Shown: positions 8,562 to 30,598 of the stretch, in pieces
How positions within the stretch are numbered: position 1 is the first letter of the stretch
Layout: every line of letters begins with the position of its first letter
IMG/VR virus record: IMGVR_UViG_3300040801_003690
Location: 1 to 64,000 of that record
Direction: 5' to 3' (one strand)
From: a virus
DNA length: 64,000 nucleotides
Program-made: the position numbers and the translations under genes
The notes under the pieces: generated by a model
Told to the model about the DNA's origin: nothing
The model's input: the letters and a program-made list of their open reading frames with translations, nothing else
The model's database searches: none

Positions 8562-10784
8562 TTACATATCAATTGCTGGTAAGGAAACATCATCATTGAG
8601 AAGGGTAATGACAAACTGGCCTTTCTGAAAATCTACTTTGGCCGTACCGCCATCGTTCAGTTCACCGAAGAGAATTTCACGGCTTAGCGGCTTTTTAATC
8701 TCATTTTGAAACAGTCGATTAAGCGGCCTTGCCCCCATCTGGTCATCGTAGCCGCTGACCATGAGTTCTTCCCTAGCCGCAGGGGTAATCATGATATTGA
8801 CATTTTTGTTCTTTAGCATCTGATTGGTTTCGTCTACAATAGCAGATACTATGAGGTCCATTTCAACCATGGTCAATTTATTGAACTCAATCGTAGCATC
8901 TAAGCGATTACGAAATTCGGGTGTGAAAAATTGTTTAATGGCTTTAGAAACTTCTCCTGCTCGTTCTTGAGATCCAAACCCGATACTAAGTTTTTCTGCT
9001 TCTGATGCCCCTAAGTTGGAAGTCATCAATAATACGACATTGCTAAAATTGACTACTTTACCTTTGTTAGAAGTAAGATGCCCGTCGTCCATGATCTGCA
9101 AGAGAACTTGTAACACGCTGGGGTGGGCTTTTTCAACTTCATCTAAAAGCAAAACTGCACTTGGATTTTCTTCTATTCTAGCAATCAACTGTCCTTGGCC
9201 CATCTGCCCCTCATCATGTCCAACGTAGCCGGGAGGAGCGCCTAACAACTTAGACACAGAATGTTGTTCGGAATATTCTGACATATCAAACCTAACTAAC
9301 TCCACTGACATAAGTTCAGCGAGCTTTTTAGCCATCCAAGTTTTACCCGTACCGGTGGGACCAACCATTAGCGCGGAAATAATTGGCTTGTTAATGTCTC
9401 GTAGGCCAGATTTAGAAATCATAACGGCATCTGTTACGACGTCGATTGCTTCGTCTTGTCCAAACACACGGTCTTTTAGACGAATATTGAGATTCTTGAT
9501 CATGGTGTTCTCTTTCAAATCCACCATATCAATGGAAATTTTAGCTAACTTTGCTAATCTATCCTGAATATCATCAATAGTGACTGTTTTGTCGTTTCTA
9601 AGCTTTACCTTCGCACCAGCGGCATCCATGATATCAATCGCTTTGTCTGGGAGAAATTTATTGTGCATATATCGAACGCTCAAATCTACCGACATATCTA
9701 ATGTTCCGTCAGCATACTCAACGCCATGGTACTCTTCGTAATATTTACGAAGTCCTTCGAGAATTTTCTTGGTATCTTCGGGTGAAGGAGGAAGAATATC
9801 TAATTTCTGAAAACGTCGCTGAAGTGCCTTGTCTTTTTCAAAATGCTGATGGTATTCATCATAAGTAGTAGCACCTATGCATGAAATATTGCCATTAGCT
9901 AACATGGGCTTAAGTAAATTTGCAGCATCCATGGTACCATTAGACGTAGCGCCTGCTCCCATGAGCATATGCACTTCATCTATAAAAAGAATAACATCGT
10001 CTCGGTTTTCAATTTGTTTAAGAATAGCTTTCAGCCTTTCTTCAAAATCTCCCCGGAACCTAGTACCAGCTAGAAGAGAACCTAAATCCAGAGAATAAAC
10101 CTGTTTGTTTTTTAGAAGATCTGGCACTTCGTTTTCGACAATCATTCGGGCAAATCCCTCGGCAATGGCTGTTTTCCCAACACCTGCCTCTCCAACCATA
10201 ATTACGTTATTTTTCTTCCTTAACGCTAAAATGTTTATGAGGTCAATAATCTCGTTTTCGCGCCCAATAACCGGGTCAATTTTTCCTTCTTTGCAGGTTT
10301 CGTTAAGATTCTTGCAAAAGGTTTCAAGAGCATCACCACCTTCGGTTCCGGTCTGACGCTGAGATTCCATTTCTTTGTTGATTTTATCCAGCGTAACGCC
10401 GTGCTTTTCAAAAATCTGCTTGGAAACGGAATTCTCCTCATGCAAAATACTCACCAAAATCATGACAGGACTGGGTTCTGGAGAATCAACAAAATGGGCC
10501 TTCACAACTGCGCGTCCCGATACCCTACGTACAGCGGTGGTGTCTTTGGGGTATCCACCAGCAGGATCATCCTGCGCGAGTTCAGGACGAGAAAGATATT
10601 GCTCTAATTTGTTTTTAATGTGATTGGGACTCCCCCCTACTGTCTCAATCATAGAAACTACTTCGGGATTTTCCATCAGCACTAACGCCAAATGTTCGGT
10701 CGTAACATATTTGTGATTTCTATGAGAGGCCAAAGTTGCGGCTTTTTTGATGATTTTTTCAAATTCCGGCATATCTGCTGACAT
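8562..10784 (-). CDS. clpA: ClpA-type AAA+ unfoldase
   Basis: The 740-residue product has the full ClpA layout: an N-terminal Clp_N domain (residues 1-140), a first AAA+ module with GEAGVGKT Walker A and LFIDEVH Walker B, then a second with GPTGTGKT and LLLDEVEKAHP. The long coiled-coil middle domain of ClpB is missing and the length matches ClpA rather than ClpB. An IGF tripeptide at residues 601-603 occupies the ClpP-docking loop position, so it can be expected to feed ClpP. GGAG lies upstream of the ATG. dnaJ lies immediately upstream with a 13-base gap, forming a chaperone operon. Known role: ATP-driven unfolding for ClpAP and N-degron substrates brought by ClpS. Confidence 0.93.
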   Translation of the reverse strand: MSADMPEFEKIIKKAATLASHRNHKYVTTEHLALVLMENPEVVSMIETVGGSPNHIKNKLEQYLSRPELAQDDPAGGYPKDTTAVRRVSGRAVVKAHFVDSPEPSPVMILVSILHEENSVSKQIFEKHGVTLDKINKEMESQRQTGTEGGDALETFCKNLNETCKEGKIDPVIGRENEIIDLINILALRKKNNVIMVGEAGVGKTAIAEGFARMIVENEVPDLLKNKQVYSLDLGSLLAGTRFRGDFEERLKAILKQIENRDDVILFIDEVHMLMGAGATSNGTMDAANLLKPMLANGNISCIGATTYDEYHQHFEKDKALQRRFQKLDILPPSPEDTKKILEGLRKYYEEYHGVEYADGTLDMSVDLSVRYMHNKFLPDKAIDIMDAAGAKVKLRNDKTVTIDDIQDRLAKLAKISIDMVDLKENTMIKNLNIRLKDRVFGQDEAIDVVTDAVMISKSGLRDINKPIISALMVGPTGTGKTWMAKKLAELMSVELVRFDMSEYSEQHSVSKLLGAPPGYVGHDEGQMGQGQLIARIEENPSAVLLLDEVEKAHPSVLQVLLQIMDDGHLTSNKGKVVNFSNVVLLMTSNLGASEAEKLSIGFGSQERAGEVSKAIKQFFTPEFRNRLDATIEFNKLTMVEMDLIVSAIVDETNQMLKNKNVNIMITPAAREELMVSGYDDQMGARPLNRLFQNEIKKPLSREILFGELNDGGTAKVDFQKGQFVITLLNDDVSLPAIDM

Positions 10785-10797
10785 TAAATTTTCTCCA

Positions 10798-11583
10798 TTA
10801 TACAGTGTATTGTTTGGGCGAATATATGTTGGTTATAATAACTTGTTTTTGCTCTTCTGTCAAGTCTGCAGGAACATAAATTTTACAAACAACATACAAA
10901 TCCCCCACAGCATTATTTATTTCTGGGTTAGGCATACCCTTTCCTTTTATCCTGAGCATTTGTTCTGGTTGCGTTCCCTGAGGAACCTTTAAGGTGTATT
11001 TATCTCCATTCAAATGCCTGATGTCTGCGGTCGTCCCAAGCATAGCATCGAATACGTTGATGTGTAACTCAATATACAAATCATCATTTTGTCTATGAAA
11101 ACGCTCATGTGGAACAACAGATACCTTAAATAACGTATTGTTGGCTTGAAACAAAGTACCATGCCGCGTACCTGCGGGTATATTAACAAGCTTGCCGTTG
11201 ACGTTTTTTTGTACGCCCCCATAGACATCTTCCAATGTACATTGAACGCTGAACACATTCTGTTGCTGTCGCCTCGGTCTACGAAAACCACCACCAAAAA
11301 TGTCACCAAATATAGACCCCAAGTCATCGGTGTTGAACGGTCCAAATCCAGAATCTTGATGCTCGAACACAGATCCAAAGCGACGTTGTGTGTCGTATTC
11401 CTGTCTTTTTTGGCTATTAGACAAGACGGCATTGGCTTCGTTTATTTCTTGAAATTTTTCTTTGGCTTGTGGATGATCAGAACGATCTGGATGCCACTCC
11501 TTCGCTAATGTTCTATAAGCCTTTTTTATTTCGGCTGTTGTAGCGTCTTCTGAGACGCCCAAAATCTCATAATAATTTTTCAC
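10798..11583 (-). CDS. dnaJ: DnaJ/CbpA-type co-chaperone (class B J-protein)
   Basis: The 261-residue product begins with a complete J domain (residues 1-70) with the HPD tripeptide that stimulates DnaK ATPase. A Gly/Phe-rich linker (about 85-105) and two beta-barrel substrate-binding domains follow. The CxxCxGxG zinc repeats of DnaJ proper are absent, making it CbpA-like. The start codon is GTG without a clear Shine-Dalgarno, so translation may be coupled to the upstream o-spanin gene 18 bases away. It is the natural partner of the phage DnaK at 24-26 kb; no GrpE gene is present here. Confidence 0.9.
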   Translation of the reverse strand: MKNYYEILGVSEDATTAEIKKAYRTLAKEWHPDRSDHPQAKEKFQEINEANAVLSNSQKRQEYDTQRRFGSVFEHQDSGFGPFNTDDLGSIFGDIFGGGFRRPRRQQQNVFSVQCTLEDVYGGVQKNVNGKLVNIPAGTRHGTLFQANNTLFKVSVVPHERFHRQNDDLYIELHINVFDAMLGTTADIRHLNGDKYTLKVPQGTQPEQMLRIKGKGMPNPEINNAVGDLYVVCKIYVPADLTEEQKQVIITNIYSPKQYTV

Positions 11584-11601: not shown

Positions 11602-11952
11602 TTATTTGTCTTCACCGTCGGGTTCGGGTGGGAAAAGCATCTTGTAGTACAACAACATTACGTTTTGTTGTTGGATATATCTTTTCATTTCTTCGTTGTT
11701 GAGTATATATTTTTCAAAATTTTCTATTGGAGTCGTAATCACAACAAAATCATTATTCTCTGGATCAAGTTGTTGATAAACTTCCCTAAGTTTGGCGTAA
11801 TCCCATATTTCCCACTCAATGTCATATAATTCCAATGGATCGGGTGCGGTGGGGTGCATAACTAGCGGATCACGAACTTTAGTTTTAGTTGCAGTCATGG
11901 AACATGCGCTTAAAAAAAGAACGGCCAGTGCTATAGAAAATATTTTAATCAT
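11602..11952 (-). CDS. outer-membrane spanin lipoprotein (Rz1-like)
   Basis: The 116-residue protein has a 14-residue hydrophobic signal ending in a lipobox LSAC, so Cys17 should be lipidated after signal peptidase II cleavage. The body is helical with Gln/Asn-rich segments and no membrane span. The gene immediately upstream encodes a one-span coiled-coil protein, the i-spanin layout. Spanin pairs fuse inner and outer membranes at the last step of lysis, so the host is Gram-negative. No Shine-Dalgarno is visible; a consensus sigma70 promoter ends 5 bases before the ATG. Confidence 0.75.
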   Translation of the reverse strand: MIKIFSIALAVLFLSACSMTATKTKVRDPLVMHPTAPDPLELYDIEWEIWDYAKLREVYQQLDPENNDFVVITTPIENFEKYILNNEEMKRYIQQQNVMLLYYKMLFPPEPDGEDK

Positions 11953-11957
11953 ACTTA

Positions 11958-11986
11958 ATTATACCGTTATTTCTCTTTCTTGTCAA
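11958..11986 (-). promoter_or_regulatory. sigma70 promoter for the o-spanin gene, predicted leaderless
   Basis: Minus-strand TTGACA (11981-11986), 17-base spacer, TATAAT (11958-11963). The -10 is only 5 bases from the o-spanin ATG at 11952. The -35 overlaps the 3' end of the i-spanin gene, so the o-spanin can be transcribed separately. Confidence 0.7.
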
Positions 11987-12392
11987 TGTTTTTGGGGTCC
12001 CAATCTTTCTGAGTAATAGATCGTAAATCTTGTAATTGTTTTTTAGCTATATTGTTGATAATATATTCGGTGTCGTTTGGATTTCTCCTTGCCGTCGTGG
12101 GTATATCCAATTCCGCAAGCATAGTTTTTAGCTGTAAAACCTGAGATTCTATTTCATCACTTCGTTCTTCTACTTTTGCTATTCCGCGTTGGCTTTTACC
12201 AAAAGATTCAGCCAATTTGTTCAATTCTTTTCGTTGTTCGTTGACCGCGTTGACTAGTAATTTTTTTTCTTCCGCATCTTTTTTCCAATTTTCCCAACTC
12301 TTAACAGCAACAATGCCCAATGCTCCTACCAAAAAAGGAATTGCAATCATAGATATTAAACTAATTTGTCCAAAGCCTTTATGTTTTTTCAT
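11967..12392 (-). CDS. inner-membrane spanin (Rz-like)
   Basis: The 141-residue protein has an N-terminal membrane segment (about residues 9-29) followed by a long charged, heptad-like coiled coil (about 30-105). This is the usual topology of i-spanins. It is paired with the lipoprotein gene downstream, with only 14 bases between stop and start. The start overlaps the IF-1 stop codon (ATGA type), so it is translationally coupled to IF-1. The identification rests on topology and neighbourhood, not on sequence identity to lambda Rz. Confidence 0.68.
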   Translation of the reverse strand: MKKHKGFGQISLISMIAIPFLVGALGIVAVKSWENWKKDAEEKKLLVNAVNEQRKELNKLAESFGKSQRGIAKVEERSDEIESQVLQLKTMLAELDIPTTARRNPNDTEYIINNIAKKQLQDLRSITQKDWDPKNIDKKEK

Positions 12393-12619
12393 GATTTATG
12401 CCTATATACTATTCGTCCCTTGGTCAGATCATATACACTGACTTCAACATCTACCGAATCGCCCAAAAGAACCCTAATATTATTTTTTCTAATCTTACCA
12501 CTTATGGTGGCTATTAATTCATACTTTGGCTCTTCTATTTCAACCACGAACATACCAGATGGTCGGCATTCCACAACTACTCCCCTCAAAGACAACAGAC
12601 TGCCGCTGTCTTTAGACAT
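12389..12619 (-). CDS. infA: translation initiation factor IF-1
   Basis: The 76-residue protein is a clear IF-1 OB-fold: GVVVE near residue 13, ATISGKIRKNNIRVL in the middle, GDSVDVEVS and the C-terminal YDLTKGRIVYR signature. Bacterial IF-1 is about 72 residues, so it is full length. IF-1 binds the 30S A site and works with IF2 and IF3 in start-codon selection. It overlaps the upstream conserved gene by 8 bases and the downstream i-spanin by 4, so it is embedded in a phage operon and is not a recent insertion. I know of no common phage IF-1; a second infA would let the phage bias initiation. Confidence 0.93.
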   Translation of the reverse strand: MSKDSGSLLSLRGVVVECRPSGMFVVEIEEPKYELIATISGKIRKNNIRVLLGDSVDVEVSVYDLTKGRIVYRHKS

Positions 12620-13385
12620 ATCTATCCAAGATAATCATTTCCTTGTTGACGTCATTGCTAACGTATACGAGATTTCTTTCTACCATCACAGTATATGACT
12701 GGCCCAGCCACTTATCCAAAACTCGGGCCTCTCGTGGTACAAAATCTAAATCTACTCCAAGCAAATCTACTTTTTCCATCAAGGGGGCCTCTTTTCCATA
12801 GTCTATTACCTTGAAACACAGAGAACTACTGTGCCCCTCGAACGTTAAAATATTTCGGTATATATTATAATTATTGATCGTAGAATCTGCCAAAAATTCA
12901 TTCAAATATTGCTCTATTGTTTTGGTGTCTTCTTTTATATTTTTTTTGTTCATTCTTTGCAAGGCGTATCCAGATGGTTTCAGCGGTATAACATCCATTG
13001 CCTCTTCCATGGTTAATAGAGATTTTTGCTTATATGTCGATACCATCCAGTCTACGGAATGGCCTACCAGTCTTTCAATCTCGCTTGTTATATACTCCAT
13101 TTTGGCCCAAAATTCATTATCTCTTAACAATTCCACAAATACCAACCACTTACCATCTGGGTTAGGATTGGGCGAAACTTCTATGTCTTGTAAAACTGCA
13201 GTACCTCTTTCCACGAAGGCGCGTATATCTTCTGCCGCCGATTCTTCCAATACATGGAACCCCACTACTATTATTTTAAATTCATGGCCAACTTTTGGCA
13301 TATACTCGTCGATAGATATCATAGGATCTACCATGTCTCGAAGATCTCCTGACCTCGGCATACTTTCACACAAACGACGAATCAT
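12612..13385 (-). CDS. conserved phage protein, 257 aa, unknown function
   Basis: Starts RRLCESMPRSGDLRDMV, then SIDEYMPK and SPNPNPDGKWLVFVEL segments. I recall similar ones from T4-like marine phages with no assigned function. It appears to be two alpha/beta halves with no nucleotide-binding or catalytic motif that I recognise. Its start overlaps the upstream gene by 4 bases and its stop overlaps infA by 8, so the three form one translational unit behind the late box at 13985. A virion or assembly role is plausible but not shown. Confidence 0.65.
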   Translation of the reverse strand: MIRRLCESMPRSGDLRDMVDPMISIDEYMPKVGHEFKIIVVGFHVLEESAAEDIRAFVERGTAVLQDIEVSPNPNPDGKWLVFVELLRDNEFWAKMEYITSEIERLVGHSVDWMVSTYKQKSLLTMEEAMDVIPLKPSGYALQRMNKKNIKEDTKTIEQYLNEFLADSTINNYNIYRNILTFEGHSSSLCFKVIDYGKEAPLMEKVDLLGVDLDFVPREARVLDKWLGQSYTVMVERNLVYVSNDVNKEMIILDRYV

Positions 13386-13960
13386 GTTCGATCTCCTTCA
13401 TCACCGTTGAGCCAACTATCGTTAGAACCTTCCACGTCAAATTCGTCAGCTGACCCCATATCAATGTCATCGGTAGGAATATCATCGACGTATGCTGCAT
13501 CTAAATCATTGGTATCGACGCCTATATCCAAATCAGACAGCCCCATGTATTCTTCCATTTCTTGTTCTATAAGTCGTTTGGGAATTCTTATTTTTACTAC
13601 CCAAACCTTATGTGGTATTAGCTTGGCTTTTTTGGTATGTGGGTCCCTAATGTCTTCTGGGCCGTATACTCGCGTAGGCTCTTTGTATACGTCCTTCCCA
13701 AAAAACACCTTGCACCCTATCTTCACCAAACGCATGGCACCTTCAGGCTCGGGCATCTTCTTATATGGATACATCAGGGATACATCAACCCAGTGTCGTT
13801 CGATGACCGGACCGTCTATCACTTCGCCTAATTCCCAATTGGGGTACACATATAGCCCAGATTTTTCTAATATATCTTCAAACTGAAGCAATATATCCAG
13901 TGCGCCAATGTCTTCATATACGTATTTTATTGTTTTTTTAATATCATCGTGTTTGGGCAT
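13382..13960 (-). CDS. conserved phage protein, 192 aa, unknown function
   Basis: The product has a conserved-looking core (YPNWELGEVIDGP, WVDVSLMYPYKKMPEPEGAMRL, HKVWVVKIRIP) of a kind I associate with T4-like marine phages, and an acidic Asp-rich C-terminal tail (about residues 145-192). No enzyme motif is visible. It is the first gene of the 13.96-11.6 kb operon and has a GATAAATA box 25 bases upstream, so late expression is likely. Function unknown. Confidence 0.65.
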   Translation of the reverse strand: MPKHDDIKKTIKYVYEDIGALDILLQFEDILEKSGLYVYPNWELGEVIDGPVIERHWVDVSLMYPYKKMPEPEGAMRLVKIGCKVFFGKDVYKEPTRVYGPEDIRDPHTKKAKLIPHKVWVVKIRIPKRLIEQEMEEYMGLSDLDIGVDTNDLDAAYVDDIPTDDIDMGSADEFDVEGSNDSWLNGDEGDRT

Positions 13961-13984: not shown

Positions 13985-13992
13985 TATTTATC
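13985..13992 (-). promoter_or_regulatory. late promoter box GATAAATA
   Basis: Minus-strand GATAAATA lies 24 bases before the 192-residue gene. If active it drives the operon that contains infA and the i-spanin. Confidence 0.65.
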
Positions 13993-14159: not shown

Positions 14160-14861
14160 TTGTCTAAAAAGAAAAAACAGGCAAGAATTATACCTATGCC
14201 AGAAACTAATTATAAAAACAAACCTCATAAAGTAGAAATAATTCCACGAAATACAACCCAAGAAGAATATCTTGGATATTTGTTGGATGAAAACAAAAAA
14301 TTAGTTTTTGCATTAGGTCCAGCAGGTACTGGAAAAACACTGTTGGCTACCTTGCACGCTATTCGTTTGTTTAAAATGGGTCACATAAATAAATTGTATA
14401 TAACTCGTCCCGCTCTGGGTGTTTCGGGAGAGCAACATGGTTTTCTTCCCGGAGGCATAAACGAAAAAATGGACCCATGGTTAAAACCTATTTTTGATAT
14501 TTTTGAGGAATATTATTCTCCTACCGAAATAAAAAAACTTTTAGAAGAAAATATAATTGAAATTGCACCCTTGGCTTATATGCGGGGTAGAAATTTCAAA
14601 AATTCAATCGTCTTATTTGATGAAGCCCAAAACACAACAGAAGATCAGATGAAAATGATATTAACTCGTGTCGGTGAAAACTGCCGGATGTTCATAACCG
14701 GGGACATACAACAGCGAGATTATAATCGCAATGGACTCAATAATTTTATAGAAAAACTCAAAACACATCCCAAAACAACCATTGGTCTAGTTGAATTTAA
14801 TTTGGCTCAAGTCGAAAGATCAGCGGTCGTTAAGGATGTTCTGGACATATACGATTCATAA
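14160..14861 (+). CDS. phoH: PhoH-like ATPase
   Basis: The 233-residue protein has the PhoH fold: a basic N-terminus, then ALGPAGTGKT Walker A (about residues 52-62), ITRPALG, GFLPGGINEKMDPWL, and a VLFDEAQN Walker B with the TGDIQQRD sensor region. PhoH proteins are ATPases often linked to RNA metabolism or phosphate stress, and are very common in marine phages. The start is TTG at 14160 with AGGAG nine bases upstream. It is one of few plus-strand genes, and its 3' end overlaps the convergent HAD gene by 55 bases. Confidence 0.9.
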   Translation: MSKKKKQARIIPMPETNYKNKPHKVEIIPRNTTQEEYLGYLLDENKKLVFALGPAGTGKTLLATLHAIRLFKMGHINKLYITRPALGVSGEQHGFLPGGINEKMDPWLKPIFDIFEEYYSPTEIKKLLEENIIEIAPLAYMRGRNFKNSIVLFDEAQNTTEDQMKMILTRVGENCRMFITGDIQQRDYNRNGLNNFIEKLKTHPKTTIGLVEFNLAQVERSAVVKDVLDIYDS

Positions 14862-15514
14862 TTATCATTAACAATCATATCATAAATCTCTTCCCATGAA
14901 TTGGCCCGTGGGAAGAGATCTGTCCTAAAGTGCTCATTATGTGAGTGATTCATCAATATGGATCGCAATCCCAGCTCATAGCCGCTTTCTGCGTGTCGAA
15001 AGTGGTCGTCTACCCACCAAAAGTTTTTTCCTTGCCATGTAGAAAGTGCATTGTGTTTCGAAGAACCAACCGACAAACATACCATGTGGTTGTGGTCAAA
15101 AACTCCCGGACCAAAAAGCGAATCTAAATTATATTTTCGGTGGTCTATGGCCGATTTATGTGAACTCATGGCTGTAATACAGACGAACTGGTAACCCAAA
15201 CCGTTTAATTTTCGTACATATTCAACCGCATCCTTCCATGGTGGAAGGTATCTTAAATAATCAGATTTGTTGAATTGATCAACCATGGTGTGAACCTCGG
15301 CATCATTTAGATCCGGATACCGTAAGCTTAATCTGTAATGATGACTGGTGTCTGGCAATGGACGATGGCCTCGGCGTTTCATGAACCGCTCAAACTCAGT
15401 TGACCAATCCAACAACACACCATCGACATCAGTCAGAATGGTGTTATGTGGCGTTTTGTCTATGAATTTTACACTAGTCTGTGTTTTCTTCTGTATCGTC
15501 TGTTGTATGTTCAT
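14807..15514 (-). CDS. HAD-family hydrolase / nucleotidase-like
   Basis: The 235-residue product carries HAD motif I as DVDGVLLDW, motif II near ITAMSS and the acidic motif IV as WWVDDHF. HAD phosphatases use the first Asp as nucleophile; related phage proteins are 5'(3')-deoxyribonucleotidase-like or polynucleotide 3'-phosphatase-like. The substrate cannot be read from sequence. A nucleotide-salvage role would fit GMP reductase, NrdJ and thymidylate synthase in the same window. It overlaps the upstream small gene by 41 bases and the convergent phoH by 55. Confidence 0.75.
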   Translation of the reverse strand: MNIQQTIQKKTQTSVKFIDKTPHNTILTDVDGVLLDWSTEFERFMKRRGHRPLPDTSHHYRLSLRYPDLNDAEVHTMVDQFNKSDYLRYLPPWKDAVEYVRKLNGLGYQFVCITAMSSHKSAIDHRKYNLDSLFGPGVFDHNHMVCLSVGSSKHNALSTWQGKNFWWVDDHFRHAESGYELGLRSILMNHSHNEHFRTDLFPRANSWEEIYDMIVNDNYESYMSRTSLTTADLST

Positions 15515-15804: not shown

Positions 15805-16743
15805 TTATTGTCCTATGGTTTCTAACTCTACAAACATGGCTGCTATATTAATTTCTATATCAGCACACAACGGGGCCTTCGCCATCGCATCCCTAATGTA
15901 TACAATTGCTTGATTTTCTTGTTCCGGGGTACTTGCCCAAAAATCGAGGTTATTATAAGCAAATCTAAAGACATCGTCTTGTTCTTCAATCCTCATGTTT
16001 TCGCAAATAATTGTTCTTGCTTCTTTGTATTTCTTGTCTCTAAATAAAGATATGGCTCTAATCAAATAATCTTCGGTAGAACTCAAATCACTTTCATCCA
16101 ACGGAACAAGTTTACCGTCTGTTATGGTTTGTTGTAAATTGTTAATGCACTTCCTCATGTCCGGGTATGCTGCTTTGATATGTGACTCTACAAGATTTAT
16201 ATCTTTTTCTTCTATCGTTACGCCCTCTGACACTAGTATATGTAAAATTCTTTCGGAGAAACTATTGCGATCCAGCTGACTAAAATTATAAACTTGACAT
16301 CTTGATTTTATACCGGCAATGACTTTGTGTGGGTAATTGCATGTGAAAATAAACCGGGTTACGTTACTGTATTTCTCAACTACATTACGCAACGCAGCCT
16401 GAGCGTTTATTGAAAGATAATCACACTCATCAATAATAATATATCTAAAATCCCCAGATGGAGTGAGAGAAGCAAATTTTACAATAGTATTTCGTACATC
16501 ATCTACTCCCGTACTAGTTGATCCGTTTATTTCAAGTATATCAGATTTGTGCACATTTAGCTCATTTAGTATTAACTTGGCCAATGTTGTTTTTCCTAAC
16601 CCAGCCTGACCACTCAGCAACAGATGTGGTATCCCCCCGTCTCTTATCCAAGACATCACTTGCTGTTTCTGATTATTATCACGAAATACATACCCATCCA
16701 CTGTGGTGGGGCGGTATTTTTCTGTCCACAAAATCTTAGCCAT
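15805..16743 (-). CDS. 44: sliding-clamp loader large subunit (gp44-like AAA+ ATPase)
   Basis: The 312-residue protein is a small RFC/gp44-type ATPase. It shows an N-terminal WTEKYRP motif, GQAGLGKTT Walker A (about residues 45-53), IIDECDYLS Walker B, a TCN sensor-1 strand and the IKSRCQ arginine-finger motif. The family loads the ring-shaped DNA polymerase clamp (gp45 in T4) with its small partner gp62. Length matches T4 gp44 (319 aa). It lies 2 bases after the GroES gene in the same operon. gp45 and gp43 are not in this window. Confidence 0.93.
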   Translation of the reverse strand: MAKILWTEKYRPTTVDGYVFRDNNQKQQVMSWIRDGGIPHLLLSGQAGLGKTTLAKLILNELNVHKSDILEINGSTSTGVDDVRNTIVKFASLTPSGDFRYIIIDECDYLSINAQAALRNVVEKYSNVTRFIFTCNYPHKVIAGIKSRCQVYNFSQLDRNSFSERILHILVSEGVTIEEKDINLVESHIKAAYPDMRKCINNLQQTITDGKLVPLDESDLSSTEDYLIRAISLFRDKKYKEARTIICENMRIEEQDDVFRFAYNNLDFWASTPEQENQAIVYIRDAMAKAPLCADIEINIAAMFVELETIGQ

Positions 16744-16745
16744 AA

Positions 16746-17066
16746 TTATTCGTTAAAATACTCGTCAGAGGGTTCTTCGTCTGATATAACTAAAATCCCA
16801 TCTGGGTAATCTACCCCCCACAAAACAAGATTTTCTTCTTTAACATTCAGTTCTCTGGACCATCTTCCATGCTCAATTAAAATCCATTCGTCGGGGTTAA
16901 CATCCACCACGCCATCACCAACCGCATATACTTTTCCCCACCGAGGACGAACACCAAACTCCTTCCCATCGTCTGATGGTACAACAATGCCGTTGATTAC
17001 TCTTTCGTCTTTCTGTATGTCGGTCACTAATACTCTATTTTTGAGGGGCTTAATCATTATCTTCAC
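16746..17066 (-). CDS. groES: GroES-type co-chaperonin
   Basis: The 106-residue protein starts IKPLKNRVLV as GroES does and has a mobile-loop region ending in GIVVPSDDG. Its hydrophobic tripeptide would bind GroEL. The Gly-rich GKVYAVGDG strand and a roof-loop region follow. T4 uses gp31 in the same role for folding the major capsid protein; here a recognisable GroES is kept. No GroEL is present, so host GroEL must be the partner. It overlaps the upstream Lys-rich gene by 17 bases. Confidence 0.88.
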   Translation of the reverse strand: MKIMIKPLKNRVLVTDIQKDERVINGIVVPSDDGKEFGVRPRWGKVYAVGDGVVDVNPDEWILIEHGRWSRELNVKEENLVLWGVDYPDGILVISDEEPSDEYFNE

Positions 17067-17944: not shown

Positions 17945-18713
17945 TGTTGTCCTTGTCTGTGGTATCTTTAGGAGGCATCACGGTGACATTATCGGGGTCA
18001 TCTATGCCGTCCTTTTCTGTATACCGCTTTATTATTGAATCCAAAACATCATTAGCTCCACCGCCAGCATACTGTGCTCTCAAAGATGACTCGTATTCAT
18101 ACAAGGGATCGTCTTCTTTGTTAACTTTCGTAAATAACGTAGTAACGTTGTCGTCTTCGTCCTCGTCAACTAAATCGTAGCAATCTGCGCTCTTACGAAA
18201 CCACCACGGAATACCATTCGTTGACTTATACGTTTCTTCGTCATGTAACACTGGCATTTCCTCCAAGCCAAGAGTTGTTTCTGCATCCATAAAATTATAT
18301 TGCATACCACCTCCATCGTCGGATTTAATTTTCGTCTGCACGATACACAGTTTGTCCTTAACAATTGAATTCATTTTATAATGTAATAATTTAACCAATA
18401 TATCGTCTGTAGGATAACCCGGTGTTGTCATGATAGGATTTGAAAACGACCCAATGGCGTTACGAGAATCTACGTCCGATGGGTCCAGCAAAACTAAGTT
18501 ATCCATGATATCGTTTAACCAAAAAGACAACACGTTGAACGCGATGGTCACGTCCATAGTACTGCTTTCTTCGGATTCTTCGTCCTCTGGGACCAAAGCA
18601 AAAAAGTCGATAGATACATCCCAATATGTTGGAATCAACGTACCCTGTATAGTTCGTATTCCCGTTATTCGGCCATCATAACTAATTAACAATTTTCCAC
18701 TTTTATTTGTCAT
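17937..18713 (-). CDS. conserved hypothetical protein, 258 aa
   Basis: A 258-residue acidic protein with a Trp-rich IPWWFRKSADCYDL motif near residue 170 and an Asp/Glu-rich C-terminus. The N-terminal part looks like a beta-rich domain. No recognised family or catalytic motif. It overlaps its neighbours by 8 and 11 bases in the unbroken 21-14.8 kb operon; the company of replication genes (DnaE-like fragment, gp44) suggests an early or middle role, which is inference. Confidence 0.6.
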   Translation of the reverse strand: MTNKSGKLLISYDGRITGIRTIQGTLIPTYWDVSIDFFALVPEDEESEESSTMDVTIAFNVLSFWLNDIMDNLVLLDPSDVDSRNAIGSFSNPIMTTPGYPTDDILVKLLHYKMNSIVKDKLCIVQTKIKSDDGGGMQYNFMDAETTLGLEEMPVLHDEETYKSTNGIPWWFRKSADCYDLVDEDEDDNVTTLFTKVNKEDDPLYEYESSLRAQYAGGGANDVLDSIIKRYTEKDGIDDPDNVTVMPPKDTTDKDNND

Positions 18714-19005
18714 TGTTGTTGTTTTCTTCTCCTTCGATTTCGCCCAAGTTTATGGGATCCAATGAATATCTCCTTTTTAAATTAGCATCCATCTCCATAT
18801 CTTTTTGTTGCTTTTCAGACGACAATATAATCAACCGTCTATCATATTCGGCTATTAACGCATCCATATAGACATCCAGATCATGCGACATAGTTGTGTG
18901 GCCATACCGATCACTGTGATCTTTGTATTGCTGTACCTTGGTCAGTGTATCCTTGAGTTTATTATCTGACCAATTCTGTATGTCAAGCAACGGATAAAAC
19001 ATCAA
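18703..19005 (-). CDS. small helical conserved phage protein, 100 aa
   Basis: A 100-residue, mostly helical protein (NWSDNKLKDTLTKVQQYKD, then a heptad-like YMDALIAEYDRRL segment). I associate this short helical type with T4-like marine phage genomes; none has an assigned function. It overlaps both neighbours in a tightly packed operon. Probably a small accessory or structural factor. Confidence 0.55.
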   Translation of the reverse strand: MMFYPLLDIQNWSDNKLKDTLTKVQQYKDHSDRYGHTTMSHDLDVYMDALIAEYDRRLIILSSEKQQKDMEMDANLKRRYSLDPINLGEIEGEENNNNDK

Positions 19006-19208
19006 AGTATATCCTCAACGTGATCAACCTCATATCTAACCATGATATCTCTCACTCGGTTGATAAGTTCCACTTCAGTATCATACGATCCGGTCATATA
19101 ATATGATGAAAACATATCTTCTTCAATGTCATCGGGGTGGGTGGCAGGTACAAAAGACAACAAAAATGATATGTCATCTTTTACTTGATCAATATTTAAT
19201 TTTAGCAT
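19002..19208 (-). CDS. small hypothetical protein, 68 aa
   Basis: The frame is open to 19259, but the ATG at 19208 (KLNIDQVKDDIS start) is preferred because it reduces the overlap with the upstream gene to 20 bases. The 68-residue product is acidic and helical. No known family. Confidence 0.5.
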   Translation of the reverse strand: MLKLNIDQVKDDISFLLSFVPATHPDDIEEDMFSSYYMTGSYDTEVELINRVRDIMVRYEVDHVEDIL

Positions 19209-23967: not shown

Positions 23968-23992
23968 AAAAGGGGCATAAAGCCCCTTTTTT
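23966..23992. terminator. bidirectional terminator between convergent genes
   Basis: AAAAAAGGGGC, five-base loop, GCCCCTTTTTT. The U-tract forms on either strand, so it serves both the plus-strand gene ending at 23967 and dnaK, whose stop codon lies inside the element. Confidence 0.85.
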
Positions 23993-25856
23993 ATTTTTCC
24001 TCAAATTCAGCATCAACAACATCGTCATCTACAGAAACATCTCCCTCTATGTTCATATTTTTAAACAAAGGGGCAGCATGTTCTGACAAAGCGGCCATGT
24101 ATTTGTTTATTGCCTCTTTGTCGTCGCCTTGCAGGGCCTTTTCTAGATCCTCAATGGATGTCTGAATGGCTTCTCTTTCTTCATCAGAAACAGCGTCCTT
24201 GGCCTCGTTAAGTTGCGTCTTGATGCTGTGCACTAATCCATCTCCGGTGTTCCTAAGTTTAACCAACTCTTCGAATTTTTTATCTTCTTCGCTATACATT
24301 TCTGCCTCACGAATAATTTTCTCGATCTCTTCGTCGCTTAACCCAGACCCAGCTTTGATTTCAATTGCTTGTTCTTGGTTGGTTTGCTTGTCAGTTGCGC
24401 TGACTTTAATGATTCCGTTAGCATCGATATCAAATTTAACTTCTATCTGTGGAATTCCACGAGGGGCGGGTTGTATGCCTGTTAAATCAAACCTCCCCAG
24501 TGATTTGTTTTCCAAAGCCTGTGGCCTTTCCCCCTGCAAAACATGAACCGTAACTGCAGGTTGGTTATCTTCTGCCGTTGAAAATATTTGGGTGGCAGAT
24601 GTCGGGATTGTAGTATTTTTTTCGATAAGCTTAGTCATGACCCCGCCCAAAGTTTCTATCCCCAAAGACAGTGGGGTGACATCGAGCAGCAGAACATCCT
24701 TGACGCTCCCACTCAAAACACCGGCCTGTATACTAGCACCTATTGCAACCGCCTCGTCCGGATTCACTCCTTTGTGTGGAGTTTTACCAAAAATTTTCTC
24801 CACTGTCTCTTGAACGAGAGGCATGCGAGTTTGTCCTCCAACTAACAACACATCGTCAATTTCGGGGGCGGTCAATCCAGCGTCCTGTAGTGCAATTTTA
24901 CATGGCTCAACCGATCTATCCACGAACTTTTTAACTAGCGATTCTAGTTTTTTTCTAGTTATACGGACCAACAGATGTTTTGGACCAGTATCTGTTGCAG
25001 TTATATAAGGTAGATTAACCTCGGTTTGCATTGTCGATGACAGTTCAATTTTGGCAATTTGTGCCGCTTCCTTGAGTCTTTGCAAGGCCAACGAATCCTT
25101 CGACAAATCGATGGCTTCTGCGTTTTTAAATTCAGATACCAAATAATCTACAATCGCATTATCAAAGTCTTCGCCTCCAAGAAAAGTATCACCATTGGTA
25201 GAAAGAACCTCGTATTGATAATCGCCATCTATTTCACTAATTTCTATTATAGAAACATCGAATGTCCCGCCGCCCATATCATAAACTGCAACCTTACGTT
25301 CACCTTTTTGCTTATCCATGCCATATGCTAACGCCGCAGCAGTTGGCTCATTGATAATACGCAATACCTCCAAACCAGCAATTTTACCAGCATCTTTGGT
25401 TGCCTGTCGTTGCGAATCATTAAAATAAGCGGGTACAGTAATTACTGCTTTAGTAACTTCTTCGCCCAAATAATCTTCCGCCGTTTTTTTCATTTTTTTA
25501 AGTATAATGGCCGACACTTCTTCTGGAGAAAGTTTTTTATCATCCACCTTAACCCAGACATCACCATTCTGCGATTCAATCAACTCATAAGGAAACAATT
25601 CTTTCTCTTTTTGTGATTCGGCATCAGTAAACTTACGACCAATAAGTCTTTTTATCGCGAACAGCGTATTTTTGGGGTTCGTTACTGCTTGCCTTGCTGC
25701 AGATTTCCCAACCAACGTATCATTTTCAGTAAATGCAACTATAGAAGGAGTCGTCCGATCTCCTTCAGCATTTTCAATAACTTTGGGTTTATCACCATCG
25801 ATGATGGCTATGCAAGAATTTGTAGTACCTAAATCTATACCAATACATTTGCTCAT
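23991..25856 (-). CDS. dnaK: DnaK (Hsp70) chaperone
   Basis: A full-length 621-residue Dna[12 protein letters not shown] phosphate loop, [29 protein letters not shown], the [10 protein letters not shown] loop, [10 protein letters not shown], the interdomain linker [17 protein letters not shown], a substrate-binding beta domain, a helical lid and a DAEFEEK tail. No key residue is missing. The J-protein partner is encoded at 10.8 kb; GrpE is not seen. The leader carries a late promoter and a ROSE-like hairpin over the AAGGAG ribosome site that is shared with hsp20. Phage-encoded DnaK is very rare as far as I know. Confidence 0.96.
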
Positions 25857-29115: not shown

Positions 29116-29370
29116 TTAAATAGATAAATTGGTATTGGCTTTTTTCTTAAGCCAACGTTTACGAGCCAACTGAGATTCTCGCTTACGCTTTGCTGTTGGC
29201 TTCTCGTAATGACTGGATTCCTTGACTAACCTAAGCCTCCCATCGTCTTGAACTTTTTTATTAAAAATTCGTAAGGCTTTGTTTAAATTATTGTCCCTAA
29301 CTTCCACTGATATTCCCTTAACCCTGATTGGTGGAGTGTGTTTTTGTGTGTCAGATTTTCTAAAGTTCAT
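29116..29370 (-). CDS. rpsU: ribosomal protein bS21-like
   Basis: The 84-residue basic protein has the bS21 pattern: IRVKGISVEVRDNNLNKALRIFNKKVQDDGRL, then the ESSHYEKPTAKRKRE segment and a Lys/Arg-rich helix. bS21 sits at the 30S platform near the anti-Shine-Dalgarno sequence. Phage-encoded bS21 is known from aquatic and huge phages, and is thought to exchange with the host protein and favour phage mRNAs. It starts 7 bases after the clpX stop, suggesting co-transcription with clpX. Confidence 0.88.
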   Translation of the reverse strand: MNFRKSDTQKHTPPIRVKGISVEVRDNNLNKALRIFNKKVQDDGRLRLVKESSHYEKPTAKRKRESQLARKRWLKKKANTNLSI

Positions 29371-29377
29371 ATGTTAT

Positions 29378-30598
29378 TCATTTCTCGCCGTTAATTTGTT
29401 TTTTCTGAACCACTTCCAACATGCCAGCGTCATCAATATAAATAGACTCTATGCCGTCTTTAGACATTTGTGGGAGTCGGTACTGTACTCCTAGCAAAGT
29501 TTCCTCTAACTTTGCTCTAAGCCCTCTGGCACCAATTTTTTGTTTAGCACATTCGGAAGCTATTTTATTTATATATTTTTCACTAAAGTTAATTATAACA
29601 TCATCTAACTCAAAAAGCAACTTATATTGATCGATTAAGTTATTTTTTGGTTCTTTTAAAATCCTAATTAAATCTTTTTCAGAAAGTTCGCTCAGTGATG
29701 TAAATACAGGGAATCTTCCTACAAACTCCGGAATCAACCCATAATCAATTAGATGTTGAGGTTTGGTTAGACTCAGTATGTCAGAAACCTCAGACGACAC
29801 CAGCGAAGCAAAACCAATTTGACTGGCTCCTCCAATGTCGCGACTGATAATCTTGTCTAAGCCAACAAAGGCCCCTCCACAAATAAACAAAACGTTAGAT
29901 GTGTCAAAATCCACTATTTCGGAGGATCCTCGTGACCCACTGCTTGAACGCAGGGGAACCTTAAGCACTGTTCCTTCTATCATTTTCAATAAACTTTGCT
30001 GTACGCCCTCTCCCGAGACATCACGGGAAGCGGAATTAGTAACAGATCGTGAAGCTTTTTTGTCTATTTCATCAATATAAATTATCCCTGTTTGTGCTTT
30101 TTCTATATCTCCTTCAGCACTATATATAAGCCGTTCAATTATACTCTCGACGTCTTCACCTACATAACCAGCCTCAGTCAGACTGGTAGCATCAGCGATT
30201 GCCATGGGCATATCGAGATATTGGGCAATAATTTTTACCATATATGTTTTGCCGACTCCGCTGGGTCCAACCATCAACACATTTGATTTATCTATTGTTC
30301 GATCTCCGACCCCCAACAACTTAATGGTTTTTATGTGGTTATACACGGCAACCGACAACACTTCCTTTGAATGGGACTGTGATATGACGTATTGGTCTAG
30401 GTATTCTTTTATTTTATTTGGGTATACTTTTGCTACTTCGGCCCTCGACTGTTCGGCGAATTCTTCTTCTACGATCTTAGAACATACCTCAATGCATTCG
30501 TTGCAGATATATGCAGGCTCATGTGTGGGGCTTTTGGGGCTAGAAATTAGTCTAGTAACATCTTTTTGTGATTTATGACAAAACGAACATATGATCAT
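29378..30598 (-). CDS. clpX: ClpX AAA+ unfoldase
   Basis: The 406-residue protein has the N-terminal C4 zinc domain (Cys4, Cys7, Cys32, Cys35), GPSGVGKT Walker A, IIYIDEIDK Walker B, the pore region EGVQQSLLKMIEGT, an IGF ClpP-docking tripeptide at 261-263, IPEFVGRFP and a GARGLRAKLE sensor-2 region. Bacterial ClpX is about 420 residues, so it is complete. With ClpP at 22.9 kb it can form a ClpXP protease. Its ATG directly follows the membrane-protein gene and bS21 follows it, giving one operon. Confidence 0.94.
   Translation of the reverse strand: MIICSFCHKSQKDVTRLISSPKSPTHEPAYICNECIEVCSKIVEEEFAEQSRAEVAKVYPNKIKEYLDQYVISQSHSKEVLSVAVYNHIKTIKLLGVGDRTIDKSNVLMVGPSGVGKTYMVKIIAQYLDMPMAIADATSLTEAGYVGEDVESIIERLIYSAEGDIEKAQTGIIYIDEIDKKASRSVTNSASRDVSGEGVQQSLLKMIEGTVLKVPLRSSSGSRGSSEIVDFDTSNVLFICGGAFVGLDKIISRDIGGASQIGFASLVSSEVSDILSLTKPQHLIDYGLIPEFVGRFPVFTSLSELSEKDLIRILKEPKNNLIDQYKLLFELDDVIINFSEKYINKIASECAKQKIGARGLRAKLEETLLGVQYRLPQMSKDGIESIYIDDAGMLEVVQKKQINGEK

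Follow-up and report, generated by a model that had tools for sequence, protein, structure and literature searches.

Huge phages that encode IF1 and IF3 were described in 2020, together with the idea that host translation is redirected (PMC7162821). In Jug phages, IF-1 is a core gene under the name factor 1A (PMC12363816). In the literature searched, we found no functional test of a phage IF-1. Here, we describe an IF-1 (infA) gene in a window of 64,000 nucleotides, the whole stretch of DNA that was analysed, which belongs to a viral contig of 65,037 bases (Table 1).

Table 1. Position of the IF-1 gene, its neighbours and other features of the window.
Feature	Position	Strand	Basis
IF-1 (infA) gene, 76 aa, ATG start	12389..12619	-	ORF translation, profile matches, structure model
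Codons of the 30S-contact loop S40-G-K-I-R-K-N-N-I-R49	12473..12502	-	translation and alignment; residue roles from PMC10913371
GATAAATA, late-promoter-like motif, 24 nt 5' of the operon's first gene	13985..13992	-	motif counts
Virion structural protein, first gene of the operon	13382..13960	-	phrog_12928, E 1e-34
Virion structural protein, 8-nt overlap with IF-1	12612..13385	-	phrog_13138, E 7e-27
Rz-like inner-membrane spanin candidate, 4-nt overlap with IF-1	11967..12392	-	phrog_9841, E 4e-4 (weak)
Rz1-like outer-membrane spanin (lipoprotein)	11602..11952	-	phrog_812, E 3e-15
DnaJ-like chaperone	10798..11583	-	TIGR02349, E 1e-59, below equivalog cut-off
ClpA-like AAA+ protein	8562..10784	-	48% identity to PA5oct ClpA
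PhoH-like protein, opposite strand, conserved block marker	14160..14861	+	synteny
Phosphatase, block marker	14807..15514	-	synteny
Clamp loader AAA+ ATPase, block marker	15805..16743	-	synteny
GroES-like co-chaperonin, block marker	16746..17066	-	PF00166, E 3e-7
DnaK-like protein	23991..25856		
bS21 gene, separate cluster adjoining ClpX	29116..29370	-	PF01165, E 5e-17
ClpX-like protein	29378..30598	-	zf-C4_ClpX, E 1e-12

The window belongs to a jumbo myophage

The structural neighbour of IF-1, used as a tblastn query, matched sequences in Phosso, RaK2-like phages and PA5oct, while the ClpA query matched PA5oct, Atu_ph07 and Phosso. The order GroES, clamp loader, phosphatase, PhoH, two virion genes, DnaJ and ClpA is common to the window, Phosso, Atu_ph07 and PA5oct. 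This gene order and these matches identify the contig as part of the genome of a jumbo myophage, with Sinorhizobium phage Phosso, PA5oct and Atu_ph07 as its relatives. The IF-1 gene is flanked by phage genes, and the same contig holds virion, spanin, UvsX, SSB and DNA helicase genes (one of the DnaB type). The window also encodes a large set of chaperones and unfoldases, consisting of ClpA-like, DnaJ, GroES, DnaK-like and ClpX-like proteins.

A complete IF-1

The preliminary description, made from the DNA alone, claimed a full-length IF-1 with the signatures SGKIRKNNIRVL and YDLTKGRIVYR, and both motifs are indeed present in the minus-strand ORF that runs from 12619 to 12389. The protein matches the infA equivalog TIGR00008 of NCBIfam (E 3.2e-24, profile positions 5–69 of 69) with 84.7 bits, which clears the curated cut-off of 61.15 bits across the whole domain. 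It also matches PF01176 of Pfam (E 3.3e-19, 68.7 bits, cut-off 30.2), and is the sole match to this family within the contig. Its best relatives among solved structures are IF-1 proteins, with E-values up to 2e-19. The AlphaFold model (mean pLDDT 89.6) has the IF-1 OB fold, and IF-1 ranks first in a Foldseek search with this model. The rmsd is 0.8 Å to IF-1 of S. pneumoniae (4ql5) and 0.9 Å to the 30S-bound IF-1 of T. thermophilus (1hr0). In the model, a five-strand barrel is formed by residues 8–19, 23–28, 33–39, 55–61 and 64–73, with a short helix (41–45) in the loop between strands 3 and 4. Hence, the window protein shares with bacterial IF-1 (TIGR00008, PF01176) a full-length profile match, the OB fold, the 30S-contact loop and the C-terminal motif, but its hairpin joining strands 2 and 3 is one residue longer. 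These results confirm that the gene encodes a complete IF-1. Alphaproteobacteria supply most of the nearest cellular IF-1 proteins, which at ~50–53% identity are too distant to name a host.

A conserved slot with patchy occupancy

Relatives of the window IF-1 are encoded in 385 viral stretches. A phage-database search with this protein, as the preliminary description had proposed, found phage relatives that include Phosso (55% identity) and Lak (47–48%). Most of the best-matching IF-1 loci that extend far enough have the same neighbours as the window. Loci were also sought by alignment of the first structural gene, so that their choice was not made by IF-1. A single-sequence scan of viral contigs with the second structural protein (12612–13385) found no relatives, whereas the alignment of the neighbouring gene did find them.

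Among 66 loci with a complete interval from the first structural gene to ClpA, 26 contain IF-1 and 40 lack it, although this share of 39% is rough, since the search alignment consisted of IF-1-found loci plus Atu_ph07 and PA5oct, some loci are near copies, and every contig in the count may be a fragment. In all 26 IF-1-containing loci, the gene follows the second virion gene and precedes DnaJ/ClpA. For 22 of the 24 IF-1-lacking contigs that were checked, IF-1 was found nowhere in the record. Because 40 of the 66 syntenic relatives as well as PA5oct and Atu_ph07 do without it, IF-1 is dispensable in this clade. When mapped on an 82-row ClpA tree, the presence of IF-1 requires a minimum of 8 changes. 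Repeated loss from an IF-1-bearing ancestor would be the simpler reading of this patchy presence, because the slot is identical among the IF-1-containing loci.

Patchy presence might also be expected if IF-1 were a recently captured host gene, carried as a passenger without a role. However, diverged phages have the gene at one and the same place, and strong purifying selection (median dN/dS 0.068 over 20 unsaturated pairs) contradicts a passenger. Moreover, the nearest rows in the IF-1 tree are phages, on long branches away from cellular IF-1, with a weakly supported split between the two (52/72; 72 columns). We therefore regard recent capture as very improbable. In the ClpA tree, the window groups with L195, L034, L046, L027, L174 and other loci, and the IF-1 tree also places it near L034, L027 and L046, with weak support (89/64). 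The gene had been called a settled phage gene on account of its overlaps with the adjoining phage genes, 4 and 8 bases long, which are both present, the shorter with the spanin candidate and the longer with the second structural gene. The shared slot in many diverged phages, the low dN/dS and the agreement between neighbours in the two trees bear this out.

Some records fall outside this pattern. The infA matches of Acinetobacter phage MD-2021a in INPHARED were set aside, because CAKLQH020000005.1 is a piece of bacterial chromosome with infA beside truA and leuBCD; CAKLQF020000005.1, which carries the same phage name, has the same infA match. The IF-1 proteins of viral contigs L035 and L048 group inside Acidobacteriota and Bacillota, and these contigs may stem from bacteria or have captured the gene recently.

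A putative late operon

The octamer GATAAATA, which resembles the late promoter TATAAATA of T4, occurs 20 times in the window against 5.8 expected. All but one of these copies are on the minus strand, where most genes lie (e.g., at 1034, 3577, 8049, 13985 and 43430). It stands within 70 nt upstream of 13 genes, against 0.5 expected, as the octamer that precedes the most genes, and mostly lies 22–30 nt 5' of them. The T4 late consensus TATAAATA itself was not enriched in the window (8 copies vs. 7.2 expected). In PA5oct, GATAAATA is found 23 nt before the gene orthologous to the first gene of the operon. This motif looks like the late promoter of the window phage, and its presence 24 nt 5' of the first gene predicts late expression of the IF-1 operon. 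Counts of sigma-70-like promoters within the block were at chance level. A perfect sigma-70 match (TTGACA, 17 nt, TATAAT) is located at 11986–11958 on the minus strand, just 5' of the ATG of the outer-membrane spanin at 11952, and a transcript from this match would begin approximately at that ATG.

What would a late IF-1 do? We consider it probable that the gene encodes a functional, vertically kept phage IF-1 that is made late and raises initiation capacity. The operon would begin at the GATAAATA late promoter and produce two virion proteins, IF-1, the spanins, DnaJ and ClpA in turn. As the third gene of this operon, IF-1 would be produced late in infection, with its translation probably coupled to the preceding gene through the 8-nt overlap. 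The phage protein would then bind to the A site of the 30S subunit in the manner of bacterial IF-1, raising the ratio of IF-1 to 30S such that initiation complexes continue to form fast enough for the burst of structural proteins. Possible precedents come from other systems. The phage bS21 of another jumbo group is transcribed late, together with structural genes (PMC9723584), and in the cold, E. coli increases its ratio of initiation factors to ribosomes about 3-fold, so that translation is biased (PMC6511846).

Divergence at the decoding-centre contact

In IF-1 of C. difficile, R46 contacts A1492/A1493 (PMC10913371). R44, R49 and N47 of the window protein correspond to R41, R46 and position 44 in C. 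difficile numbering, which is used below. The window IF-1 keeps K39, R41, R46 and the C-terminal YDLTKGRIxxR, and has Asn at position 44, two residues before R46.

IF1 of E. coli is also an RNA chaperone and antiterminator, and it can replace cold-shock proteins in B. subtilis (PMC3017892). The OB fold of our model would suit such activities, and the window IF-1 might chiefly be an RNA chaperone or transcription antiterminator that aids read-through of long late operons. Yet, such a role does not obviously need K39, R41 and the C-terminal motif, all of which the window protein keeps, and this makes the explanation improbable.

Of the 123 distinct cellular sequences that were scored, 115 have Arg and 8 have Lys at position 46 (one further cellular sequence with Arg at this position fell outside the pattern through a Val), and 121 have Tyr, Phe or Arg at position 44. 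In contrast, Arg46 is replaced in 45 of the 49 distinct syntenic phage proteins, by Asn (23), Gln (8), Lys (7), Thr (6) or Ala (1), and is kept in the remaining 4, while 38 of the 49 have Asn at position 44. R41 is invariant among the syntenic phage proteins. The Fisher p of 1e-27 for the residue difference is overstated, because the counts are not independent; the change is seen in several separate subclades. Judged by its R46 and its Asn at position 44, the window IF-1 is among the less altered members of the clade.

Since most syntenic relatives lost the Arg that touches A1492/A1493, the IF-1 of this clade may differ somewhat from the host factor in its action. A further step, which we regard as possible but doubtful, is that an old, clade-wide late-operon IF-1 has diverged at its decoding-centre contact (Asn at position 44; Asn, Gln or Thr in place of R46) into a phage-specific initiation factor. 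Its altered grip on A1492/A1493 would change 30S residence or the passage of late mRNAs at the subunit-joining checkpoint. The altered contact would also fit a role in counter-defence, in which IF-1 occupies the decoding centre and excludes nucleases or host factors with the same target, for example RsgA. The OB domain of RsgA is similar (structure matches 1u0l and 9evt, and a weak match to PF16745, RsgA_N), and RsgA is reported to inhibit T4 through ribosome inactivation (PMC10475562). A position in the late operon is late for a counter-measure, however, and counter-defence seems distinctly unlikely to be the main role.

Start-site selection

The preliminary description stated that many genes lack Shine-Dalgarno (SD) sites, and proposed that IF-1 and bS21 jointly shift start-site selection in favour of phage mRNAs that are SD-less or leaderless. 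A bS21 gene is indeed encoded, ~17 kb from IF-1 and beside ClpX, and the S21 proteins of phages have been suggested to give phage mRNAs an advantage (PMC7162821; PMC9723584). The SD core (GGAG, GAGG or AGGA at -20 to -4) is absent from the IF-1 gene itself and from the bS21 gene. Yet, the lack of SD sites is true of a minority of genes only, as 55% of the 62 curated genes of the window have an SD core, compared with 10% in shuffled upstream sequence.

Spacing of the late motif offers another point in favour of re-tuning. Across the clade, the distance from TAAATA to the ATG has a broad peak at 17–32 nt as well as two sharp ones, at 7 nt and at 5 nt, of which the latter reaches 41 over a background of ~4. 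The motif lies exactly 5 nt 5' of the ATG at the window starts 60490 (minus strand), 31645 (minus strand) and 33006 (plus strand), and likewise in loci L007, L022, L024 and L056. With the spacing of T4, a late promoter 5 nt before the ATG starts transcription at or beside the ATG. Hence, the 5-nt spacing predicts leaderless late mRNAs for these few genes.

The comparison of relatives speaks against re-tuning, however. SD use is the same with and without IF-1 (0.40 vs. 0.40, p = 0.94). Late motifs at leaderless spacing are no rarer without IF-1 (48/179) than with it (45/159; p = 0.81), and therefore leaderless candidates do not explain IF-1. Furthermore, bS21 does not track IF-1: it is present in 7 of the 13 IF-1-containing contigs of at least 100 kb, and also in PA5oct and Atu_ph07, both of which lack IF-1. 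With SD cores this common, these comparisons do not support the idea that initiation is jointly altered to the benefit of SD-less phage mRNAs, and we consider such re-tuning unlikely. Some relatives of the window phage encode IF-3, which was not seen in the window contig. In two of the relatives' contigs, IF-3 is directly followed by bS21, away from IF-1 (G024, the contig of L039, at 10952–11399; G004, the contig of L005, at 18648–19093).

Comparison with known systems

With a conserved late slot, a late promoter that can be named and a single altered contact residue, the loose hypothesis of a takeover becomes sharply testable. Such tests would show whether large phages manage initiation late, at the peak of virion-protein synthesis, rather than early.

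The IF-1 of Lak, Jug and Bacteroides DAC phages is phage-encoded as in the window. In the open literature searched, and in the parts of it available, the late syntenic slot, the late motif and the loop-residue signature were not found for the IF-1 of huge phages.

PA5oct (Arenbergviridae) has the block from ClpX-bS21 to ClpA, the PhoH inversion and the late motif as in the window. It differs in that IF-1 is absent, both from the slot, where there is no room for it, and from the whole genome. Phosso (PV764938) has an annotated IF-1 between the structural pair and DnaJ-Clp, in a block ordered as in the window. In contrast to the window, Phosso has ~7 kb of additional genes on either side of its IF-1, has Asn instead of Arg at position 46, and also encodes IF-3. 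The window gene is thus a further example of the phage IF-1 genes reported since 2020. As such, it is of a known kind, whereas the fixed place of IF-1 across many related viruses is new here.
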